This document shows, piece by piece, positions 532 through 60,005 of a stretch of 64,000 nt of DNA (positions are counted from its first letter, which is position 1; each line of letters opens with the position of its first letter). The notes beneath the pieces are model-generated. The model searched no databases. It worked only from the letters and a program-made list of their open reading frames with translations, and had not been told where the DNA came from. This DNA comes from Azorinus chamasolen. Lineage: Eukaryota; Mollusca; Bivalvia; Cardiida; Solecurtidae. The position numbers and the translations under genes were made by a program. The stretch lies in NCBI GenBank assembly GCA_963576725.1, contig OY755252.1, forward strand, positions 55,953,985-56,017,984, read 5' to 3'.

Positions 532-985
532 GCCATTGCTCCATAGATACGCCTTTTAACGCCTTTACAAACAGAGCAGACCCAAACTAGACGACTCCTC
601 TTGTAGCAGCTGTCTCATCAGTGTCTAATCTGTTTGCTTACTTTTGTTTGTCTTGTACTTGTACTTTTGATCATGTTTGTAATGTTTATCTCTGGTGCTC
701 GTGTGTTTGTTGTTGTTTTATGTGTTCATCTCATATGTGCGCGTGTGTTTGGGTGTGTGGTTATGTGTGTGTGGCATGCTGTCTACCAATGTTTTGGTGG
801 TGGTTACGTCTTTTATGTGCCTTTGCCTGCTTGACTTTACTACTTCAATTACGAAAATATATAAATACGATTCTATACTTTCCGCCATTGCAAAACAGTC
901 TCTTGTTCGTATGTTCTTATAAAAACGAGCTAATTGACATTTATGCATAATTTTATTTCATAAATGAATTTTCATGGAGCTAAGG
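532..985. mobile_element. T1 MITE interrupted by a Naiad 3' tail
   Basis: The left half (about 532-640) reads as a T1 element: CCATAGATACGCC, then GCAGACCCA and a decayed hairpin ending TCTGTTTGCTTAC. The right half (about 865-985) resumes with GATTCTATAC..CCGCCATTGC and ends ATGAATTTTCATGGAG, as in other T1 copies. The sequence between is a Naiad 3' tail. This is a nested insertion at an AT-rich point of the MITE. Confidence 0.6.
641..860 (+). mobile_element. Naiad retroelement 3' tail (5'-truncated copy)
   Basis: This stretch parallels the 3' tail of the long Naiad on the minus strand at 52.2-52.45 kb: the TG-rich tract, TGCTGTCTACCAATGTTTTG, GGTGGTGGTTACGTC, then GCCTGCTTGACTTTACTAC. It contains no reverse transcriptase or SECIS sequence, so the copy is strongly 5'-truncated. 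It sits inside a T1 MITE. Confidence 0.6.
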
Positions 986-3806: not shown

Positions 3807-3934
<128 letters not shown>

Positions 3935-22473: not shown

Positions 22474-24328
22474 GTTCATAATGTTGTTTGGAGTATATAC
22501 TGCTTGAAAACAAACTGCGTTTAGAGTTACTTCGATGTCGCACGTGACGGAAATGGCACCAGACGTCGACAACGCCACCATGCCCACGTTACATGGGGAT
22601 AACTCTAACATACTTGCCAACCAGTCTATGTTACGCAAAATGAACGATGACGAGGTCAAGCGACTGATACCTACTATCATATATCTCGCGTTACTTTCCG
22701 TCATCGGAATCATCGGTAACAGTCTTGTGTGCCATGTTTACAGGACACGATACCGATTGTCTAACTCCCAGTGTTTCATTCTCTGCTTAAGCGCCATAGA
22801 TCTGTTCTCGTGTTGCATCGTAATACCTTTAGAAATAGCCACCATAGTGGACCAATATACCTTTGAATACTTATGGCTATGCAAGCTATCTCGATTCTTC
22901 AACACCCTGGGAACGTTATCGTCATCATTTCTACTGCTATTTATAGCAATTGACAGATACAGAAAAGTATGTCGGCCTTTCGGATGGCAGATTAAAGCAA
23001 ATGTTGCTAAATTTCTCTGTGTGCTTTCGGTCCTACTCGGGTTACTTTTCTCCTGGCCGGCGATATTCATATACGGTAAACAGAGATTCGACATACCAGA
23101 GTTCGGCTTAACAGGAACAGAATGCTCCACTGACGATGCAATGTTAAACACGATTTTTCCGTTGATCAATTCGGCAGTTTTCGGAGGATTGTTTATCGTC
23201 GGAATTATTTCAATTTGCATACTGTACTGCTTCATCGGGCGAGAGGTTAAACGCCACGCTAAGAGGATGCCGAAAGAGCTTTCTATTCGGAATACATCTA
23301 TCCCTATGCTGTCTTCAACAATAGACGGACGGGACTCAAGAATAAGCGGTGAGATTGATGCTAATATTTTGGCAAAATATGACATGACTAAAATCAAAAG
23401 GGAATCAAAGAAGAAATCGTTTTCCAAACGCAGATCCAGAAAAGCTGATAGTGAGAGCTCGTGGGCTGATAGAAATGATTTCGAATTGTCCTGTAGTATG
23501 GACTGCAGTGTCAAGGATACAAGTATTGTTTTATCTGACAAGGGCAAAGAAAAGGATGAAGATGTTCAGTCAGATGATAGTGGAATAAAGTCAGATCAAA
23601 CAAATAAGGATGAAAATGGAGATAGTTGTAACAAGGACAGTGTAGAAGACAGAGAGGCAGATGATAGTGATCTTGAAAATACTGATTGTGATCATAAAAA
23701 CGTTGATGCGGGTGAAATTGAACATAGTGTGAATGTAGAAATCCAGAATAAGCTGAACCGCTTGGAACCTGTAAATGAAGATGAACATTCAGCTGACCAA
23801 ACTCCTGAACCAGAGACTGAAACGAAAGAGGACACGAGTCCAAAACAAAGCATTGTTGAAACAGAAAGAAAAATATCCGAACTATCGCAATCATCCGAAA
23901 GCATGAAACCAAGGTCTATACGAGCACGCATGTCTTCTATTGGTAGTTTGCTATCGAGCGCGGTTGTCCGGCGGATGACGTCACTTGTTAGCGGCACGAG
24001 CACGGGATCGACTGCTATTAAAACACATTACTTGAAGCAGGCACGTGCCCGAAAGACAGCGTTCCTCATGTTCTTGATTTCGCTTGCTTTTGTTCTTAGC
24101 TACATGCCACACTTGTTATTGATGATAATCAGACAGTTGGTGAACAATTTCATCGAGAATATGTCAAAGGACGGACGCGCCGTGTATAAATTCTTCCTGC
24201 GTTCCTATTTTCTCAACTGTGCCATCAACCCCGTCATTTATGGCGTCTGTGACTCGCGCTTCCGGACCGCGTGCAAGGAAATATTTTCACGCTGCTGCAA
24301 TCGAGGCGAGTCACGTGATTTCAACTAA
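22474..24328 (+). other. Receptor-gene exon with acceptor site and small upstream ORF
   Basis: A consensus acceptor (TTATTTCATTTCAG) ends at 22473, so an exon probably starts at 22474 and the gene has at least one upstream non-coding exon. A nine-codon upstream ORF runs from ATG 22481 to TGA 22507, 27 bases before and in the same frame as the main ATG at 22535. It could damp translation of the receptor. No clear polyadenylation signal is visible just after the stop. Confidence 0.5.
22535..24328 (+). CDS. Class A (rhodopsin-family) G-protein-coupled receptor
   Basis: A 597-residue seven-helix receptor of the plasma membrane, encoded in one exon. The N-terminus (1-45) has sequons at N13 and N29. 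TM1 carries GN at 61-62, TM2 has LSAID (85-89), and C116 at the top of TM3 can pair with C197 in loop 2. DRY is at 140-142, TM5 about 207-232, TM6 about 507-532 with LSYMPH in place of CWxP, and NPVIY (565-569) in TM7. RCC at 586-588 could be palmitoylated. The third intracellular loop is about 270 residues, acidic and Ser-rich with basic ends, far longer than in most peptide receptors. The family is therefore clear, but the ligand is not. Similar long-loop receptors in molluscs are often labelled CCK-, orexin- or amine-like. ATG 22535 is the first in-frame start after an upstream stop. Confidence 0.93.
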   Translation: MSHVTEMAPDVDNATMPTLHGDNSNILANQSMLRKMNDDEVKRLIPTIIYLALLSVIGIIGNSLVCHVYRTRYRLSNSQCFILCLSAIDLFSCCIVIPLEIATIVDQYTFEYLWLCKLSRFFNTLGTLSSSFLLLFIAIDRYRKVCRPFGWQIKANVAKFLCVLSVLLGLLFSWPAIFIYGKQRFDIPEFGLTGTECSTDDAMLNTIFPLINSAVFGGLFIVGIISICILYCFIGREVKRHAKRMPKELSIRNTSIPMLSSTIDGRDSRISGEIDANILAKYDMTKIKRESKKKSFSKRRSRKADSESSWADRNDFELSCSMDCSVKDTSIVLSDKGKEKDEDVQSDDSGIKSDQTNKDENGDSCNKDSVEDREADDSDLENTDCDHKNVDAGEIEHSVNVEIQNKLNRLEPVNEDEHSADQTPEPETETKEDTSPKQSIVETERKISELSQSSESMKPRSIRARMSSIGSLLSSAVVRRMTSLVSGTSTGSTAIKTHYLKQARARKTAFLMFLISLAFVLSYMPHLLLMIIRQLVNNFIENMSKDGRAVYKFFLRSYFLNCAINPVIYGVCDSRFRTACKEIFSRCCNRGESRDFN

Positions 24329-39588: not shown

Positions 39589-40035
39589 CCTATCCCCTCT
39601 CCGGCTAATCTACAACAACCGCGATGGCAAATACAGTGGTAAAGTGTTTGAGTGTATAACGAAACCATTTAAGTGAACAAACTGTATCCACCTACCGCTA
39701 GTGTACTCAATGATTGAGCTGCAAACAGAGTAACTGTAGAAAAGTAAAAGGGTTCGACAAAAACGAAATAGTACAGATATCCGACGTTCTCCTTCAGTTT
39801 CTGGATTTAAGAGGTCGCCTTCATAGAGTACTAAACCATTCTTGTCGACGTACATGCAAAGAGGCCAGCGTGATTGCCAACTGTAAAAGGGTTGACAACC
39901 AAACATGCAGTATGTTGTAGTACTATAGGATCATATCCCTTTATAATGAATTTTTTAACATATTTGATGAACAAAGTGAGAAAATGGGTATGTCCAATAA
40001 TTTTACGAAGTTTGTAAATCACATCACCCCATTTA
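39589..40035 (-). mobile_element. Naiad fragment: RT C-terminus, SECIS and tail
   Basis: On the minus strand the coding end reads GDVIYKLRKI, IGHTHFLTLF and YDPIVLQHTACLVVNPFTVG to a TAG at 39831-39833. The SECIS hairpin follows at once, and then a tail ending GAGGGGATAGG near 39589. It is 5'-truncated near codon WGDVIY. Confidence 0.8.
39771..39831 (-). promoter_or_regulatory. SECIS-like hairpin, Naiad fragment at 39.6 kb
   Basis: Same layout as the other Naiad copies: outer GTAC/GTAC helix, 4+4 internal loop, TGAA/GGAT quartet, GGCG..CTCTT with AGGAG..CGTC, and AAA in the apical 5' bulge. The small apical helix is weakened (TCC opposite TGA). Confidence 0.7.
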
Positions 40036-45257: not shown

Positions 45258-45296
45258 GCAAAATAACACCAAATACAGCTATATTTAAACCCATTG
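45258..45296 (+). other. Probable 5' end of exon (splice acceptor and 5' UTR)
   Basis: CATTTCCATTTCACAG ends at 45257 and is a good acceptor. A stop (TAA, 45264-45266) is in frame with the downstream ATG, so the coding sequence must start inside this exon. The 5' UTR exon would be upstream of the window's T4 cluster. Confidence 0.5.
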
Positions 45297-46463
45297 ATGG
45301 AAGAACTCATGCTGTCAGCCTTAACGTACGAGATCAGAATGTTATGGAAATTCTATTTTCTATTTTTGATGACATTTGTTGCAAATGAAACAAACGATGC
45401 ACAACTATATACGCAAACCGATTCGTTTCAAGCGTTATTTCAATTGATGTCAATGACAGAAGAAGTATGTGGTGGGATTGACTGGTGTACAGTCCGAAAC
45501 GGAAGCATAAAGGACACGTTGCACGGTGGAACACGCACTGGGTGTTGCATCAAATGTTCATGTAGCCAAACATGTATGAGTTTGCACACATGTTGCCCAG
45601 ATTATAAACTGAGTCAAGTTTTAGAAAACCGTGTTTACAGCAACATGTCAAAACTCATCAGTGAACTGACAAAAATAAACGGCACAGATGATACAGACAT
45701 CAACATTGTTTACGATGAAGGAAGGCCACCAGAAAACATGGACTGTCTTAAATCGTGGATGTTTGATATATCGGAATTTCGACCAAAAGGACACATGTAC
45801 CTCATGGTTTCAAAGTGTTCAAATTCAACTCATTTTACAGCAGATGTCAAATCAAAATGTGAAACTGATCCCTTATTGTGGAGTGATGTCCATATAGAAA
45901 ATTTTCTACCCGTACAATCCATGGAGACTGGAAATGTTTATCGCAACAGGTATTGCGCCAAGTGCTCTTTGGAAGAAAACGCAACATTCACGGAATGGAA
46001 TGTATATGTGGCGTCATTTTGGACGCCTACTGGTATCTTGAATGATATAAGTTTTACATTTGATGAATTATTGCAAAGACATGTGTTTGATAAAAGCAGC
46101 GTATTGTTTAAACCTAGTGACACATTAAGAAGTTTCAATGCACCAAAAGTATGTCACACATTCGACATCGACTCATGTCCAATTGGTAACAACACACGTG
46201 AAATTGAAAGAAGAGTCTGTGAGAACATTGTTCAACCTGTTGTCTATAAGCAAGACCGGGTATTTATAACAAAGAACTTGGCTTGCTCAAGATGTAACAA
46301 TGTTTCGCTGGACGACTGTGGAGTGTTTTACAGGTCAAACAGTTACGAACCATTCCTTGGGCGGATCCTCTTCAATCACATCAATGATGACGGCAATTCT
46401 GGTTTGATTGGTACGAAATTCTCTGACCAGTGTAGTATTGGCTATTGGTACGACGAGTATTTG
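45297..46463 (+). CDS. Cysteine-rich receptor ectodomain, exon 1
   Basis: First 389 residues of an approximately 701-residue single-pass membrane protein. A hydrophobic stretch (LWKFYFLFLMTFVA, residues 16-29) fits a signal peptide; ATG 45339 would give a tighter signal than ATG 45297. Next is a Cys cluster, VCGGIDWC to GCCIKCSC and TCCPD (about 58-102), followed by YRNRYCAKC and LACSRC modules. These cysteine patterns resemble the N-terminal halves of methuselah/adhesion-type GPCRs expanded in molluscs; this is family knowledge, not a search result. Many N-glycosylation sequons are present. The exon ends at a codon boundary with donor TTG|GTAAGT (46463/46464) and joins exon 2 in phase 0. The ligand and function are unknown. 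Confidence 0.8.
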
Positions 46464-46479
46464 GTAAGTTTCACAACCA

Positions 46480-46668
46480 CAGTAAAATCTCTCTATAACG
46501 GCCACTAAATTGCATCACATTTTTTGTGTCGAAGGCAGGGGGCTGCTTAAAGCAAGGTGAAAATAAAACAGAACGCTCCTTTTACTTCCACCTTGCTTTA
46601 AGCAGCCACCTGCCCTAAAAACCAACTAATTAACACAATTTAGTGGCCGTTATAGAGAGGTTTTACTG
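46480..46668. mobile_element. A1 MITE beside the splice donor
   Basis: CAGTAAAATCTCTCTATAAC to AGAGAGGTTTTACTG. The apex is deleted (GAACGCTCC then TTTTACTTCC), so the stem is closed by a short loop. The insertion begins 16 bp after the donor GT. TA flanks are not preserved. Confidence 0.75.
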
Positions 46669-47945: not shown

Positions 47946-48259
47946 TTTATTTAATGGGATTTGGTTGAACATCTCTGATATTGCTATCAATGTGTAGTAT
48001 ACAATGTGTAGTATTGTTTTTCGTTTCTAGGATACTGAAATGTGCAAATGTTTATAAAAGCACGTGTAGCTTTTTCTGGTTGTTTTACCGTAAGGTGTAA
48101 GTTTCTGTCTATGTGTTCAAGATTTTCATTCCAATAGCGGTATTGGCAACCCATCCAATTCAGTATTGTAGAGCACCAAAAACAATCAAACCAATACATA
48201 AAACGTTATGACATCACATTGTCTCTTTCATAGTGTAGGGGCATAGTGTAGGGCAATGT

Positions 48260-48577
<318 letters not shown>

Positions 48578-50880: not shown

Positions 50881-52729
50881 AACTTTATTGTGCTGCGGGC
50901 AATTCCCACAGCACAGAGTATGTGATGATCTTAATGACCTACTTTTTTAGCACTGGAGTAACATTTTTACCGTCTGCCTGGAAGAGCTTATTTGTTATGA
51001 ACGATTCGGTCACAATCCGTTTCGGGCTTGGTCGTTTCTGCCCCATCATAAAATATAGCCATTTCCGCAAAATTTAGTCCAACCGATTTTCGTTCAAATG
51101 TATGTAAATGGCAATTGTGATATCATTGAACGGAAAGTACCAATATACGCAGAATTACATCCAGTCGATATATGTTTTTGATTAGATGATAAATGAGCTT
51201 TCAACACCAATATATGCCGTATTATGATAGTCAAGTATGGGGGGGGGGAATGATGTCAGTAAGTATCCTGTATAATTTGTATCACAAAGTTGTGGAAATT
51301 GTAAAGTCAAGGCATGGAATTTACAAATAAAACCTTGGTTCATTTTGATATTGAAATTTTATTGTGATAAGAAACAAATAAGAAAACACAGGTTTATCAA
51401 ACAATACGTATTTCATAAGCAAACAGAGCAGACCCTGATCAGATTGGTCCTATATGAGTGTCAAATCTGGGTCTGTTCTATTTTCCAATGTGTTAAAATG
51501 CATATGTACAGCTATTAGTACATTTATAGGAAAATATAGCACGATGTAGATCTGTTGTCTGAAAAAGATAAAATATGTTGCATCAGTTAAAATCTGATGC
51601 ACGGAACTAACTATGTGTGCGTGTATAGTGTACTATATACTCCCAAGTCGCAATGAAGTATATGGGTATTCAGTCACCGATTCCTTCAGCAAATAAGGTC
51701 TGAACTTCATTAAAATATTCATTAACACAGTGATTAACAGTAATTCCATATTTGTTTTTATGAACTGTACATTACTATTTGGAAAGCTGCGCCAGAATAA
51801 CAGCCCAGAAACCATTCAACCACAACGATTTATGTGCAATTCATTTATAAATTTTGTGCAAAATACTGATGTTTGTTCCCACGGTTTTAACTTTTAAAAA
51901 TTACGTCTTCTAACTAGTTGAGGGGGTATACTACAATCACCCTGTATGTTTATTAGTCTGTATGTTCGTTCATCGATCTGTCCGGATTTGTCCGGAGCTT
52001 TACTCGGTCATCTTTCAATGAATCTTTCTCAAGCTGTGTATACTTCCTTGCCATTATATGGCATTGAGCACCTGTTATTTTGGTCATGATCACTTGACCG
52101 ATATATCAGAGCATTTTTGACATTTTTTTCTTGGAGGAATGCGGCCTGAGCATTAGTAATACCAAATGGACAATACTTTGCAATATCATATGAACCTGTA
52201 AATGGAAAAGTAGTAAAGTCAAGCAGGCAAAGCCACATGCAAGACGCAACCACCACCAAAACACCGATAGACAGCATGACACACACACACACACAACCAC
52301 ACACCCAAACGCACACGCACACACACATACGAAATGAACACAGAAAACACCAAAAGACACACAAGAAACAGGGACAAACGTTCCACAACATGAACAAACC
52401 ACAAGCACAAAGACGCAAGGCAAACAAAAGGAAGGGTGACAAAGAGAGTACCGCCTTGGCACGGTCAGCAGCAAAAACACCACTGGGGGTTTAAACCGGT
52501 TTACGGACGTCCTAACCTCACACTTCTCTCAAAGTCACCCTAGCTTTACAAATATTGTAAATAAAGGTATCCCCGCTGGACTTACCCACAACATAGACGA
52601 CGGTGAACACAGGACAACATGTAAAACATAGCATAATAACTGTGACAATCCGTCAAATATGTACTCAATGGCTTTGCTGAAGTCAGAGCACCTGCAGGTA
52701 AGCCGTTAAGGGCACGACAGGGAAAAAAT

Positions 52730-52794
52730 AATACATGAGTCTGGTAAGCTCCTCCTGTATCCAAGTTTAAGAGTATACCATCATAGAGTACTAC
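52730..52794 (-). promoter_or_regulatory. SECIS element of the long Naiad
   Basis: It begins at the TAG stop. Reading 5' to 3' on the minus strand: helix I (TAGTAC..CATGTA, with one G-U), a 4+4 internal loop, then a TGAT/AGAC quartet with tandem G-A pairs. Helix II is GGTA-TA-CTCTT with AGGAG-CT-TACC. AAA (52766-52768) lies in the 5' bulge, 12 nt after ATGA. A small apical helix CTTG-GATA-CAGG closes it. This is a form 2 eukaryotic SECIS layout. The helix II pairs GGTA/TACC replace GGCG/CGTC of the other copies. Confidence 0.8.
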
Positions 52795-55700
52795 CCTCGG
52801 CCTGTCATCGCGCAAGCAAAGAGGGAAGCGTAGCTACCGACTGTAAAAGGATCGATAACCAAAAATGCAGTGTGTTGCAATATAATAGGATCATAACCTT
52901 TCTTTTTAAATTTTTTAATGCGTTTTATAAACAAATCATGAAAATGGATATGACCCCGAATTTTCCTAAGTTTGTAGATAACATCCCCATAAAATTCTGG
53001 TTGAGAAATGCCTTGTCGCAGTAACGTCCGTAGATTGCAATTATATTTACTAATGAGAGGTAAATTTCGATAATAAAATTTAGAAAAGGTTTTCCGAAGT
53101 TTGTGATATCTGTAACCTTGCTTAAGAAGTTTATCAGTTATAACTAAATTACGTCTGTTAAAATCTTCAAGCAAAGAACAGGCTCGGGCAAACCTAATAA
53201 GTTGAGAAATATAAACACCATAAGATGTAGAACGTGGCACATCCCCATCTAGAAAAGGATAATTAACAATTTTAAAATTAAAATCTTCTCTTTTATCGTA
53301 TACTTTGGACGAAACTTTATCATTTGTAATTGAAAGATTCAAATCTAAAAATGAAGCATTAATGTCAGATTGATTAGCTTTGTTTAAAGACAGTTCTTTT
53401 GGGTAGATTGAAGAAACCATAGTATCAAAATAAGGATTATCTAAATTCAAAATATCGTCTAAATACCTTGAAGTTTTATTAAAAGCATTCACAATATCGG
53501 TCTGTGTATCAGGTTTTAAGCTAAGCATAAAATCCCTCTCGTAGCAATACAAAAACAAATCTGCAACAAGAGGGGCACAATTTGTACCCATGGGTATACC
53601 AACAACTTGACGATATATGGTATCTCCATAACGCACAAATATATTATCTAAAAGAAAGGTAAGAGATCTACAAACATCAAGGCAAGTCCACATTGTGTAA
53701 TGTTCAACTTCTGAATTCGAAAAGAATGAACGTTGAACATTACAAGCAATGAACATTTTGTTTTCTCTGGCAAAGGTTTTTTCTATTAATTTAATAAGTC
53801 TATCCTTTATAAGATGGTGAGGTAGAGTAGTATAGAGTGTAGAGAAATCATAAGAGCTCAGTAAAGAAATGTTATACTGTTCATTTTCAAGTTTTGTTAA
53901 AACATCATTTGAATTTTTTATGGACCAAAAAACATTAATACCAGAATTTTCATATATTTTATCACAGTAGCGTTTAACATGTTCTTTGATCGTAGTAAGA
54001 CAGGACGTCAAAAGTATAGATAATTTAGTAGTGGTACAACAGCTAGAGTTGGCAATAAAACGCGACTTATAAGGGTTTTTATGTAGTTTCGGAATCCAGT
54101 ACAAAGTAGAAAGTTTATGTTGTTTTATGTTAGGACCAGACTTAAAATCATTGCACATTTTTACATGTTCCGAGACTATATCTTTTTCAGGTGTTTGAAT
54201 GGTCATATAAGTTTTTGAATCAGTTAGCTCCTTCTTTAAAACATCAACATAATACAATCTTCAAATAATGATTACATTGTTTGATGCCTTGTCAGCAGGA
54301 ACAAGAACATAATCTGAATGAAAATTAGAAATGTTTTTCTTCAAGTAGCGAAATGTAACTCTAGGTCGAGGTGGTAAAAGATGGTTATTTGATTTGTAAA
54401 AAGTTATTCGTGTATCAATAATATCGAAAATACATTTCTTCCAATCCGAAAGGGCATTAACATCAGCATGTTCTCGTCGACACCATTTGATGCAGAAATC
54501 TTGAATAGCTTCCGCAATATGAGTTCGACAAGCGTCAAAATCAATAAGGGAAGGTAATCTAAATTTAGGTCCTTTAGTTAGGAGGGTCCTGAGACGTTTA
54601 TCCTTAATGATATCAAAATTACCAGTAATGACATGACCAACTGGTTTATAGCAAAAGCTAGAAATGCTACAATCTCAAGAAATAGGGGTATTAACATCAA
54701 TATTTAAGTCAGAGACAATTTTATTGTAGTTCAAAATAACATTTCTAATAGGTTTATTATATTTATAACAGATGATAGGTGATTCAGAGTTGATGAAATA
54801 TTTGGGAATAGCCTCGATTACATTCTTATCACGAAATATACTTTGAATATCAATAAAATCGATACCTTTATTTAGGAACTGAAGTTTCAGAAAATGTCTT
54901 TTATGTTCAGATTCTTTATCAATACGTGGACGAAGAACATGCTGTGTGTAACTTTGTATAAGTGAGGCAGTATTAATTAACGGATCTGTACGCATATAGA
55001 TTTTATCAGCCTCTTCGTCTATTGACTTAAGACAGGAAAAGGGTAAAGACGATAAACAAGATAACATAGAATGTTTACCAGTTTGTTTTAGAATAGTATG
55101 TAAATAATGAATAGACATATTACGACGTAATTTACGCTTAATATTACCATTTCTACGTCTGCCATGTGATCTACTTTTACGTTTTCGAATAGAAAATATA
55201 GAGAAAATATCGATACTTGGATCTTTAGAAATATTGCCGCTTTGGAAAATGTTATCATTAAGGCCTAAAGGAAAAGGTGTTTGTAATTTCTTTATCCAGT
55301 CTAGCTCTGTGATGAAACGAGCTTTAGATTTTAAACTACCAGTAGTTTTAGAATCATAATAAATTTGTTCTACTGGTTGAACCGAAACATATTTGAAAGA
55401 ATGTCCTGTATGACGAAAATGCTGGTAAAGAAAATTGTGTACTTTTTTGATCCGGCAATGGTAACTGTGTTCACGAAACCTAGTTTTTAAAGAACGTCCT
55501 GTCTGACCTACATATTGAATGCCACAACGTGGCGCATTTCATGTAAGAACATATATAATATTAGATGAGTTTCAGTCTAAATCAGAATTAATCTTCACAC
55601 TAAACACTCTACCATTAACAAGAGATTTAATTGTTGATCTAGTAGAAATGAAATTGCAACACATACACCTCTTACTATTGCACTTAGTAATTATTGGATA

Positions 55701-55991
55701 CACCCTATGTCTTTTGTTCAAATAATGTGAATTTAGATGGACTTTACTATAACGAATGATAGATTGCTTTAAAGGAGACAAAACGATTTTAGGTCCATTA
55801 TGAAAAATGTTACTAATAGCCGAAGAGGGAACATGAAAAGATGAAGCAGAAGACAATTTTAGAGGTTTAATACAAACTGACGGCTGTAGTGATTGGAAAT
55901 TAGCCAGGTTATGAGGAATCTGAACGGAAGACACAGAGTGTAAGTTTAAGTTATTTGTAACTCTGTCATGATAGCTTATCCAATAAGGTAA
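52791..55991 (-). CDS. Naiad polyprotein: GIY-YIG endonuclease plus reverse transcriptase, with four TGA (selenocysteine) codons
   Basis: One frame of about 1066 codons (residue 1 = codon 55989-55991), ending in TAG 52791-52793. It has no TAA or TAG inside. TGA occurs at 55572-55574 (residue 140), 55539-55541 (151), 54675-54677 (439) and 54261-54263 (577). Domain order: a Cys-rich segment (KCNSKRCMCC); the GIY-YIG nuclease with CGIQYVGQTGRS and RFREHSY; a basic linker; the linker pair TGA-Asp-Cys (the CxC motif of Naiads); PADKASNNVIII-TGA; RT motif A YDFSTLYT, motif B GIPMGTNCAPLVAD and catalytic YLDDI. The nuclease-first order separates Naiads from canonical Penelope elements. Each TGA stands where relatives have Cys, and a SECIS follows the stop. 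I infer selenocysteine. The start codon is unclear. Confidence 0.82.
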
Positions 55992-56144
55992 TTAGAGCAT
56001 TCTTTATGAGCCCACATATCAGACTCTGCACTGTTAGCGAATTCAGAACAATATCTGTAAAATATCCGTAGTTCCTAGTAAAAAAAATCATATTTCGGTG
56101 TCAAAAATATTTACATTGGAAATAAAAGATTTTGAGAAGATTAA

Positions 56145-56765
56145 ATAATTACAACATACTGCATGTTTGGTTGTGAACCCTTTTACAGTTGGCAATCACG
56201 CTGGCCTCTTTGCATGTACGCCGACAAGAAAGGTTTAGTACTCTATGAAGGCGACCTCTTAAATCCAGAAATGGAAGGAGAACGTCGGATATCTGTACTA
56301 TTTCATTTTTGTCGTACCCTTTATTACTTTTCTACAGTTACTCTGTTTGCAGCTCAATCATTGAGTACACTAGCGATAGGTGGATACAGTATGTTCAATT
56401 AAATGTGTTTTTGTTATACATGCACTTTACCACTGTATTTGCTGTCGCGGTTGTTGTAGATTAGTCGGAGAGGGGATACGTTTATTTACACTGTTTGTCT
56501 TTTAGGATGGGGATGGAATAAGGGTGAGGTTGGGCGCCCATAAACCGGTTTAAACCCCCGGTGACTTTTGTCACTGACCGTTCCAAGGCGGTACTTCCAT
56601 CTTCCTCCTATTGAATGTTTGTTTTGTCTTTGTGCGTCTCTTGTTGTTTTTTCTACCCATGTACATTTGCTGTTTCCTTGTGTTGCTGTTCGGGCGAGTG
56701 TTTGTTCTGTATGTGGTATTTCCTGCATGACTCATTTTTGTACTTCTATAGTCACATTAGAGGTT
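56145..56765 (+). mobile_element. Naiad fragment: last codons, SECIS and full tail
   Basis: Starts at ACAACATACTGCATGTTTGG (coding end LQHTAC), reaches TAG at 56236-56238, then the SECIS. The tail follows: CTCTGTTTGCAGCTCAATC, TTTACACTGTTTGTC, GCCCATAAACCGGTTTAAAC, GTGACTTTTGTCACTGACCG, CCTGCATGACTCATTTTTG. Orientation is opposite to the long copy, whose 5' edge lies only about 150 bp away. Confidence 0.8.
56238..56298 (+). promoter_or_regulatory. SECIS of the 56-kb Naiad fragment
   Basis: Outer helix GTAC (56238-56241) with GTAC (56295-56298). Quartet TGAA with GGAT. Helix II GGCG-AC-CTCTT with AGGAG-AA-CGTC. AAA at 56261-56263. The apical helix TCCA-GAAA-TGGA is perfectly paired in this copy with a GNRA tetraloop. 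Confidence 0.8.
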
Positions 56766-57179: not shown

Positions 57180-59525
57180 AATGTTAACCACCTATTATCT
57201 GCTACAAATATAACAAACCCATCAGAAATACAATTTTCAACTATAATAAAATTGTGGCCGACCTTAATAGTAATGATAATAGTCCTGATAATTGAGATTG
57301 CGCCACCTCAAAATTTTGCTATTCTCCGGCTGGTCATGTGATTACTGGTAATTTTGAGATAATTAAAGATAAACGTCTAAGATCTCTTTTGAAAAAAGGT
57401 CCCAAATATAGAATACCATCCTTGATAGATTTTAACTCTTGTCGAGTTCAGATTGCGGAGGCTTTACAAAATTTTAGTATTAAATGGTGTCGAAGAGAAC
57501 ATGTTGAGTCTAATGCTCTTTCTAATTTGATATAATTGACAAACGCATTTCTTTTTATAGCTCTAACAAACACCTTCTTCCACCTACACCTAGAATTTCT
57601 TTTAGACATCTTCAAAAGGGTATACAGGATTTCCATTCAAAATACGTTTTTGTTCCTGCTGATAAGGCATCGAATAATGTGATTATTATTTGACGATTAC
57701 ATTATATCGATGTCTTGAAGCAGGAAATTATTAATACCAAATTCTGAAGGGTGGTGATCCCCCGAAAGCAAATATTGCAAAACAAAAAGAGAAAATTGCA
57801 GACTCGGTTTTATTGAGTCTGTTCATGAGCAGTAATTGAAAGTGCAACACTGCTCACGCCACCTAGCATCGGCTTAAGCGGTATTCAATTTTCAGAACAA
57901 GAACGACTGAAATTCATGATCTCGAAGGATCAGAAGGTATAACAACACTGAGAATGAAGTACGGGTCGACGTTTTACAGCCGCCACACAAGCACTTAACA
58001 CATGCTGTTGTGAAGATTATAAATTCTGAAGGGTGGTGATCCCTCGAAAGCAAAAATTGCAACACAAAAAGAGAAAATTGCAGACTCGGTTTTATTGAGT
58101 CTGTTCATGAGCAGTAATTACATTTCAGTAACTACTGACGAAAAGACCATCGTTTCAGACCATGTCAAATAGTGTGAACAACTTGGAACAGATATTAAAA
58201 TTACACAACATAAACTTCCTACAATGTATTGGTTACCAAAACTACATAAAAAACATATGAAGCGCGTTTTATTGCAAATTCTAGCTCCTGTACTACATGT
58301 ACTACCAAATTGTCAACACTTTTTACTTCTTGTTTAACGAAGGTAAAAGAACATTTTACTGTGATAAGACATATGAAAATTCTGGAATAAATCTCTTCTG
58401 GTCTATTAAGAACTCTTCAGAAGTCTTAAACAAACTTAGGAACAAAAGGTATCTTGCATCCATTGTATTCACGTACGATTTTTCTACTTTGTACACAACT
58501 CTTCCTCTTAATTAAAGATAAACTGACCAACTTAATCCAGAAGTATTTGCCCGGGAAAAACATCATTTCTGGCATGTAATGCTGAAAAAGCTTTCTTTAC
58601 TGACGAGCAAATGAAATATTACACCAATTGGACTTGCTCAGAAGTTTGCGAATCACTTACCTTTCTTTTGGATAACAAATGTGTATGTTATGAGAATGCT
58701 ATATACCGTCAGGTAATTGGTATTCCTATGGGTACGAATTGTGCACCACTTGTCGCAGATTTGTTTTTGTACTGCTATGAGAGAGATTTCATGTTACGTT
58801 TGAATCCACAATCACAAGTAGATGTTATAAAAGCCTTCAATGAAACTTCACGATATTTGGATGATATTTTTAATTTAGATAACCCTTTCTTTGATGCTCT
58901 GAGTCCTACAATTTATCCTAAAGAACTCAAATTGAACAAAGCTAACCCGTCCGACAATTATGCAGCTTTTCTTGATCTAGACCTTAAAATTGATAATGGA
59001 ATTAGTTCTTCTAAAATATATGACAAAAGAGATGATTTTGATTTTAATATTGTAAATTTCTCTCATCTTGACGGAGATGTTCCCCGTGCCCGATCTTACG
59101 GGGTTTATATATCTCAACTTATTCGTTTTGCTAGAGCTTGGTCGTCTATTGACGATTTTAACAGTCGAAATCTCATTTTAACTGAAAAGCTGCTTAAGGA
59201 AGGATATAGATACCATAAACTAAGAAAAGCTTTCTCGAAATTTTACTATCGGAATCTCACACTTATTGGCAAGTACCAATGTAATCTCAAGGCACTTCTG
59301 CGACACGGTGTGGATGTGAATTTTATGGTGATGTGATTTACAAGTTTCGTAAAAGTATTGGACATACCCATTTTCTCACTTTGTTCATCAAATATGTTTT
59401 AAAAAATCATTAAAAAGTGATATGATCCTATAGTACTACAACATACTGCATGTTTGGTTGTCAACCCTTTTACAGTTGGCAATCACGCTGGCCTGTTTGC
59501 ATGTACGCCGACATGAAAGGTTTAG
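57180..59525 (+). pseudogene. Naiad ORF, decayed second copy
   Basis: Homologous to residues about 425 onward of the long copy: PIICYKYNKPIRN, then TGA-Asp-Cys (TGA 57293-57295), GHVITGNFEIIKDKR, VPADKASNNVIII-TGA (TGA 57691-57693), YENSGINLFWSIKNSS, GIPMGTNCAPLVAD and YLDDIFNLDNPF. Both TGA codons sit at the same sites as in the long copy. Otherwise it is broken: a 16-nt deletion shifts frame near 57535, a 380-bp repeat is inserted at 57741, TAG interrupts at about 58169, and another shift lies near 58510. The GIY-YIG part is missing. The longest open part is 58611-59336. The final stop TAG is at 59523-59525. Confidence 0.85.
57741..58119 (+). repeat. 280-bp interspersed repeat inserted in the Naiad ORF
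   Basis: AATTCTGAAGGGTGGTGATC, GAGAAAATTGCAGACTCGG, GTCTGTTCATGAGCAG form a block of about 100 bp that appears at both ends (57741 and about 58020). Between lie CACTGCTCACGCCACC, GTACGGGTCGACGTTTTAC and CATGCTGTTGTGAAG. Naiad coding sequence resumes at about 58120. The inverse copy is at 37540. It looks like an LTR-like or tandem-unit element without coding capacity. Confidence 0.75.
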
Positions 59526-59585
59526 TACTCTATGAAGGCGACCTCTTAAATCCAGAAACGGAAGGAGGACGTCGGATATCTGTAC
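59525..59585 (+). promoter_or_regulatory. SECIS of the second Naiad copy
   Basis: GTAC/GTAC outer helix, TGAA/GGAT quartet, GGCG-AC-CTCTT with AGGAG-GA-CGTC, AAA in the apical bulge, TCC/GGA mini-helix. It differs from the 56-kb copy at two positions, both in loops or mismatched sites. Confidence 0.78.
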
Positions 59586-60005
59586 TATTTCGTTTTTATC
59601 GTACCCTTTATTACTCTTCTACAGTTACTCTGTTTGCAGCTCAATCATTGAGTACACTAGCGATGGGTGGATACGGTTTGTTCACTTAAATGTTTTCGTT
59701 ATACATGCAATTTACCACTGTATTTGCCGTCGCGGTTGTTGTAGATTAGTCGGACAGGGGATACGTTTATTTACACTGTTTGTCTTTTAGGGTGGGGATG
59801 GAATATGTGTGGGGTTGGGCGCCCATAAACCGGTTAAACCCCCCCCCCCAGTGACTTTTGTCACTGACCGTTCCAAGGCGGTACTTCCATATTCCCCCTA
59901 TTATATGTTTGTTTTGTCTTTGTGCGTCTCTTGATTTTTTTAGTTATGTACATTTGCTGTTTCCTTGTGTTGCTGTTCGGGCGACCGTTTGTTCTGTATG
60001 TACCA
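59586..60005 (+). mobile_element. 3' tail of the second Naiad copy
   Basis: CTCTGTTTGCAGCTCAATC, TTTGCCGTCGCGGTTGTTG, TTTACACTGTTTGTC, GCCCATAAACCGGTTAAAC, a C9 run, GTGACTTTTGTCACTGACCG, CGTTTGTTCTGTATGTACC. The end is near 60005. From 60006 to 60450 nothing is recognised. Confidence 0.75.

Follow-up and report, generated by a model that had tools for sequence, protein, structure and literature searches.

A hairpin with form 2 SECIS features at the stop codon of a Naiad-type retrotransposon predicted to encode a selenoprotein in the bivalve Azorinus chamasolen

Results

Two Naiad families share the locus

The window, by which we mean the whole 64,000-nucleotide stretch analysed here (contig OY755252.1 of the bivalve Azorinus chamasolen, positions 55,953,985 to 56,017,984), holds four copies of a Naiad-like element that fall into two families, A (one copy) and B (three copies). 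The family A copy occupies 52199-55955 (-), is 5'-truncated at 55955, and ends in a 3' UTR of about 590 nt after the stop. Its open reading frame (52791-55955 (-)) has no ATG in the window copy and comprises an N-terminal GIY-YIG-like region, a CxC linker and a reverse transcriptase (RT), with four in-frame TGA codons. Among 20 family A copies fetched, all stop at window-equivalent positions 52193-52203, and three extend beyond 55955 to an in-frame upstream ATG; counted from that ATG the ORF has 1063 codons, and family B likewise has 1063 from its first ATG.

Naiads are Penelope-like elements (PLEs) marked by a GIY-YIG endonuclease N-terminal to the RT, a CxC linker, an insertion-in-fingers domain in the RT, and the lack of a hammerhead ribozyme. 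P0001, in which we number residues, gave no Pfam match above cut-off itself, and the order of its domains was read from aligned relatives: some of these carry PF01541 near the N-terminus (P0015, residues 121-205) and others, in precomputed annotations, PF00078, so that GIY-YIG lies N-terminal to the RT. YLDD stands at residues 843-846, and the CxC motif corresponds to residues 439/441, reading U-D-C in family A, with C441 invariant in 14 aligned sequences. No hammerhead was found in the window, where an Rfam scan at gathering cut-off listed no family. Two Naiad-like relatives of about 1300 aa, P0015 and P0018, carry a C-terminal ubiquitin hydrolase (PF00443) after the RT in precomputed annotations, which was confirmed in P0015 at residues 1024-1299. 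Among viral contigs, one stretch fits a pattern and none encodes a relative.

Around 55955-56300 the truncated A copy (-) and a truncated B copy (+) are inverted relative to each other, with A close to the 5' side of B; at other loci, A copies stand in tandem about 4.2 kb apart in three pairs, on C2, C15 and C17. A piece at 637-845 (+) is 79% identical to the A element 3' UTR and has no SECIS, and dinucleotide microsatellites at 3822-3932 and 48257-48460 match the stretch of that UTR at 52279-52330. The window A copy has Phe at residue 1043 (52863-52865 (-)), at which L002-L008, L020, L022 and L026 have Cys. Outside the elements, an uninterrupted rhodopsin-type (neuropeptide-receptor-like) gene with PF00001 spans 22535-24328 (+), its best eight named matches all coming from bivalves (Mactra, Potamilus, Sinanodonta, Mercenaria, Dreissena, Mya), and a 413-codon open frame at 45267-46508 (+) shows a weak somatomedin B match below cut-off.

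A probable form 2 SECIS begins at the stop codon

As defined in passages of PMC2746813 and PMC3328465, a SECIS carries an AUGA core with tandem G.A pairs and three unpaired A or C residues, and form 2 has a bulge and a third helix; a passage of the second paper adds that no form 1 SECIS had been identified in invertebrates at the time of writing. By this definition, the hairpin at 52793-52729 (-) shows form 2 architecture. Immediately past residue G1066, the window family A copy reads, on the minus strand, TAG TAC TCT ATG ATG GTA TAC TCT TAA AC, and folding, Rfam SECIS_1 and pair counts together place the element from the UAG to the 3' strand of helix I (52729-52793 (-)). The three letters of the ORF stop codon (52791-52793 (-)) therefore open the 5' strand of helix I, in which UAGUAC pairs with GUAUUA over 6 bp below a 4+4 loop. 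Above the loop, the AUGA core (52781-52784 (-)) faces AGAC (52739-52742 (-)) in a UGAU/AGAC quartet with tandem G.A pairs, followed by GGUA/UACC, a 2x2 loop and CUCUU/AGGAG. The AAA motif sits 12 nt past AUGA, and it is opened by the two As (52768-52766 for the motif) of a second in-frame stop, UAA, at 52767-52769 (-), as read from the post-TAG codons of copy L026, whose letters are identical in the window. The apex continues from AAA into a 12-nt mini-hairpin (52754-52765 (-)), CUUG-GAUA-CAGG, whose 4 bp form the third helix of the form 2 SECIS according to folding and pair counts.

The three family B copies carry the corresponding element at 56237-56299 (+) (truncated copy), 59524-59586 (+) (decayed copy) and 39770-39832 (-) (truncated copy with a mutated mini-hairpin). 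All four window copies retain the AUGA core with its tandem G.A pairs, and below the quartet each has helix I with all of its cells paired (100%) and an internal loop; the unpaired AAA bulge and a third helix with a small apical loop are present, the top pair being missing in part of family B. A SECIS starting at the stop codon had been proposed in the earlier note, and its sequence, coordinates and pairings all came out as claimed in alignment and folding.

Folding energies of the four copies were -20.7, -19.6, -21.7 and -14.1 kcal/mol (z = -2.81, -2.51, -2.91 and -0.64), the last being the copy at 39.8 kb, which folds no better than shuffles (49/200 equal it) owing to mutations in its mini-hairpin. 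The search pattern TATGA-N12-AAA-N12..14-GGA-N8..10-GA, composed after the copies had been seen, matches four times in the window, exactly at the four SECIS, against 0.06 expected. With permissive filters, SECIS_1 was the best-matching Rfam family at all four sites, over the full model length, with 23.2 bits at 52730-52792 (E = 0.017), 26.0 bits at 56237-56299 (E = 0.0029), 31.4 bits at 59524-59586 (E = 9.7e-5) and 22.9 bits at 39770-39832 (E = 0.02). It was also the top family in 5/5 further family B copies (23.1-33.2 bits). The covariance-model check that the earlier note had called for thus returned a SECIS_1 match at all four sites, but none reaches the gathering score of 35 bits; all nine sequences tested score below that cut-off (22.9-33.2 bits), and in the whole-window scan the SECIS are visible with the permissive search only. 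Beyond the window, a model built from the four window copies (R1) found the A-type hairpin, at equal score, in 28/28 family A loci, and matched 9/9 and 10/10 further 3' ends picked by similarity. These last ten come from the list obtained with P0003 as query, nine of family B and one of family A, and all carry the SECIS.

Pairing is retained across a deep family contrast

Across the four window copies, 96.1% of 76 cells pair over 19 base pairs: family A and the B copy at 56238 keep 19/19, the copy at 59525 keeps 18 and that at 39831 keeps 17. Five of the 19 pairs are changed on both sides between A and B, a number reached by 1/500 shuffles, and slid controls gave 0-1. Compensatory changes against three other copies, as had been put forward, are real, but the count was generous: the three B copies are 93-94% alike over the 3' end and form one family, so the changes amount to a single A/B contrast rather than three. 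Similarly, the covariation of the apical arms (CTTG/CAGG against TCCA/TGGA) is exact in one B window copy (56238), but the others read TCCA/CGGA (18/19 pairs) and TCCA/CTGA (17/19).

A wider set of 11 distinct sequences includes two old A-like copies (L016, L019) taken from sequence that flanks fetched loci; 91.5% of its 201 cells are paired, and five double-changed pairs compare with 0-2 in slid controls and with 5/500 shuffles. The top mini-hairpin pair fails in seven of the 11, and in L016 helix I has lost its 3' strand. Counts of pair types were no higher than in shuffles, either for the window copies (298/500) or for the 11 sequences (380/500).

Between family A and the B copy at 56238, identity is about 64% both within the SECIS (42/66) and in the 3' UTR that follows (145/226). 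Over 71 columns, 26 differ, 13 of them paired, yet all 19 pairs are retained; when the same 13 changes were placed randomly in paired columns, 3 of 200,000 neutral simulations kept 19/19. Since the letters drift as in the flank while pairing is held, the RNA structure looks selected, and the earlier proposal to that effect is borne out by the retained pairs, the simulations and the slid controls (0-1 against five), with the covariation drawn from a single deep two-family contrast within this genome and from two old relatives, L016 and L019, that are partly broken.

In-frame UGA codons fall on cysteine sites

The four UGA codons of family A lie at residues 140 (55572-55574 (-)), 151 (55539-55541 (-)), 439 (54675-54677 (-); first position of the CxC motif) and 577 (54261-54263 (-); a conserved Cys site of the RT region). 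Family B has Cys (TGT) at the first and TGA at the other three; one extra TGA in its open frame lies upstream of the first ATG, outside the ORF. In pairwise alignments, Cys occupies the four sites in 47/47, 49/50, 96/100 (the other four W) and 108/116 (the other eight W) of the relatives that span them, respectively, counted over 116 aligned of 120 listed relatives among 261 found. A multiple alignment gave similar counts, with P0012 having Cys at 151. We considered whether W at 439 and 577 in P0003-type relatives is real Trp and judged this less likely, as W replaces Cys exactly at UGA sites; more likely, it would reflect TGA translated by a gene caller with code 4.

In 27 relatives with a piece of at least 44% identity, no such piece starts before residue 220 and none reaches 140 or 151, and eight start at 455-491, just past residue 439. 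Such late starts would be expected if TGA cuts the ORFs in their genomes too and may have this origin, or other causes of truncation.

Genome-wide, all 43 scored family A copies, the window copy included, have exactly four TGA and no TAA or TAG; as the top-ranked among 48,339 first-look candidates, they do not amount to a census. With P0003 as query, 58/58 scored copies have two TGA and the terminal TAG. Both sets (43 and 58) comprise best matches only, so that decayed copies are under-counted. One A copy and one B copy, compared over 1080 aligned codons (a few upstream of the ATG), share 70% protein identity, with dN 0.22 and dS 2.06, the latter near saturation and rough only. The TGA codons reported previously hence lie on near-invariant Cys sites, and three of the four are TGA in both families despite near-saturated synonymous divergence.

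The host genome carries selenocysteine machinery

A tRNA for selenocysteine (Sec) with anticodon TCA lies on C15 (80.7 bits, cut-off 47). Two more tRNA-Sec matches, at 47.2 bits, were classed as tRNA-Ser when run through ARAGORN, and the family also matches in 14/14 control genomes, above cut-off in five, which is why the anticodon matters. C11 holds seven SepSecS pieces arranged in order; none reaches the cut-off for the whole protein, which is what exons should give, and three of them hold a stop within the matched stretch, which we take for run-in to introns. The tRNA-Sec and the SepSecS pieces are our evidence for host Sec machinery. A working selenocysteine system carried by the transposon, as the earlier note put it, holds for the cis part (UGA codons and SECIS), which is on the element, but the trans factors belong to the host, and 'working' would follow from selection and from the many young unbroken frames.

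Stop codons inside the SECIS

In families A and B alike, helix I has the UAG at its base. Beyond it, family A continues Y-S-M-M-V-Y-S-stop and family B Y-S-M-K-A-T-S-stop, and in both families the AAA motif takes its first As from the second stop, UAA. Among 60 relatives with listed C-termini, 13 end SDSMM[VA][PS]T, and the alignment of P0003 to the host genome continues beyond the UAG. A back-translation of SMM-V-P-T-stop agrees exactly with AUGA-N12-AAA, provided that UAA is the stop. We infer that proteins ending in SDSMM[VA][PS]T represent sister families without the UAG, whose ORF would end inside the SECIS at the inner UAA.

Discussion

We interpret the hairpin as a SECIS that serves a young Penelope-like retrotransposon of the Naiad type, of which the single ORF would encode a selenoprotein with four Sec residues (three in family B), and we put the probability of this reading at roughly 0.9. 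It draws on the structure and its covariation, the UGA sites that are conserved, an ORF under purifying selection, the many unbroken copies, and the host tRNA-Sec and SepSecS pieces. A SECIS acts by binding SBP2 and directing Sec insertion. In the mechanism we propose, the element mRNA would carry four UGA codons where relatives have Cys, together with one form 2 SECIS starting from the UAG stop; this SECIS would recruit the host SECIS-binding protein together with eEFSec and its Sec-tRNA (anticodon TCA), and these would recode every UGA. Recoding of UGA 1-4 would yield a full-length GIY-YIG and RT protein with Sec in its GIY-YIG, linker and RT regions, and translation would end at the first UGA in its absence. 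From these sequence features we infer SBP2 binding, actual Sec insertion and a need of the enzyme for Sec.

Other readings of the hairpin were weighed against this one. A retrotransposon 3' region can serve as a recognition site, and the hairpin might be conserved for a job of that kind, e.g., RNA recognition by the element's own RT or endonuclease, the UGAs being ordinary stops that divide the ORF or subject to near-cognate readthrough. We regard this as very improbable: the conserved unpaired letters are those of a SECIS (AUGA, GA, and AAA at 12 nt), no Rfam family outscores SECIS_1 at any of the four window sites, the UGAs coincide with Cys positions, one of which is UGA in A and Cys in B, and the 43 scored A copies are free of other stops in that frame. 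That the hairpin arose by chance in a repeat, its copies alike by descent from one source, can hardly be credited. Family A copies are indeed nearly identical, copy number alone proves nothing, and we rejected it as independent support, but A and the copy at 56238 differ at 26/71 columns with all 19 pairs kept, which simulation almost never reproduced (3/200,000).

The remaining alternative overlaps our reading and concerns the present only, namely that this was once a SECIS, that the families are now dead and that the signal is a relic. All four window copies are truncated or decayed, and two older A-like copies (L016, L019) have broken parts, as a relic would; against this stand copies with unbroken frames at 98-100% protein identity, and A copies that are 98.5-99.9% alike to the window copy over the main matches, so that we hold extinction of the families to be improbable.

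Sec-coding Naiads have reported precedents. Craig, Yushenova, Rodriguez and Arkhipova (2021, Mol Biol Evol) reportedly described spider and clam Naiads that independently came to encode multi-Sec selenoproteins; our own literature search, at the level of titles, met none on the subject. The element resembles the reported clam and spider Naiads in its bivalve host, GIY-YIG before the RT, CxC linker and several in-frame UGA. That study may already cover the SECIS placed at the stop, the UAA within the AAA motif, and sister ORFs that end at this UAA. Rfam SECIS_1 (RF00031) shares with our hairpin two helices, an internal loop, AUGA with tandem G.A, an AAA bulge, a third helix and a small apical loop, and differs in that the score here is below gathering and the ORF stop codon belongs to helix I. 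SECIS elements in coding regions are said to have been described by Mix, Lobanov and Gladyshev (2007); in those, translating ribosomes would reach the SECIS, but here the overlap would lie at the terminator itself, judging from the protein ends of sister families. SELENOP, described in the abstract of PMC8230778 as holding several Sec in one protein, is likewise a case of several UGA decoded in one ORF (predicted here), but our element has four UGA with one SECIS, on a mobile element.

The overlap raises the idea that terminator and SECIS form one device, in which a ribosome that has decoded all UGAs would unfold the SECIS while terminating and so briefly silence the signal. We consider this unlikely, if less so than the alternatives above; if true, successful recoding would be a built-in brake on the transposon's own protein output. 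With its stop codon inside the SECIS, the element would allow a simple reporter to probe how termination and recoding affect each other. More broadly, a Sec-dependent mobile element would have its jumping tied to the selenium supply and recoding machinery of its host, and two diverged multi-copy families in a single genome, with Cys in one where the other is predicted to have Sec, would offer a natural experiment on why a retrotransposon enzyme retains Sec rather than Cys.
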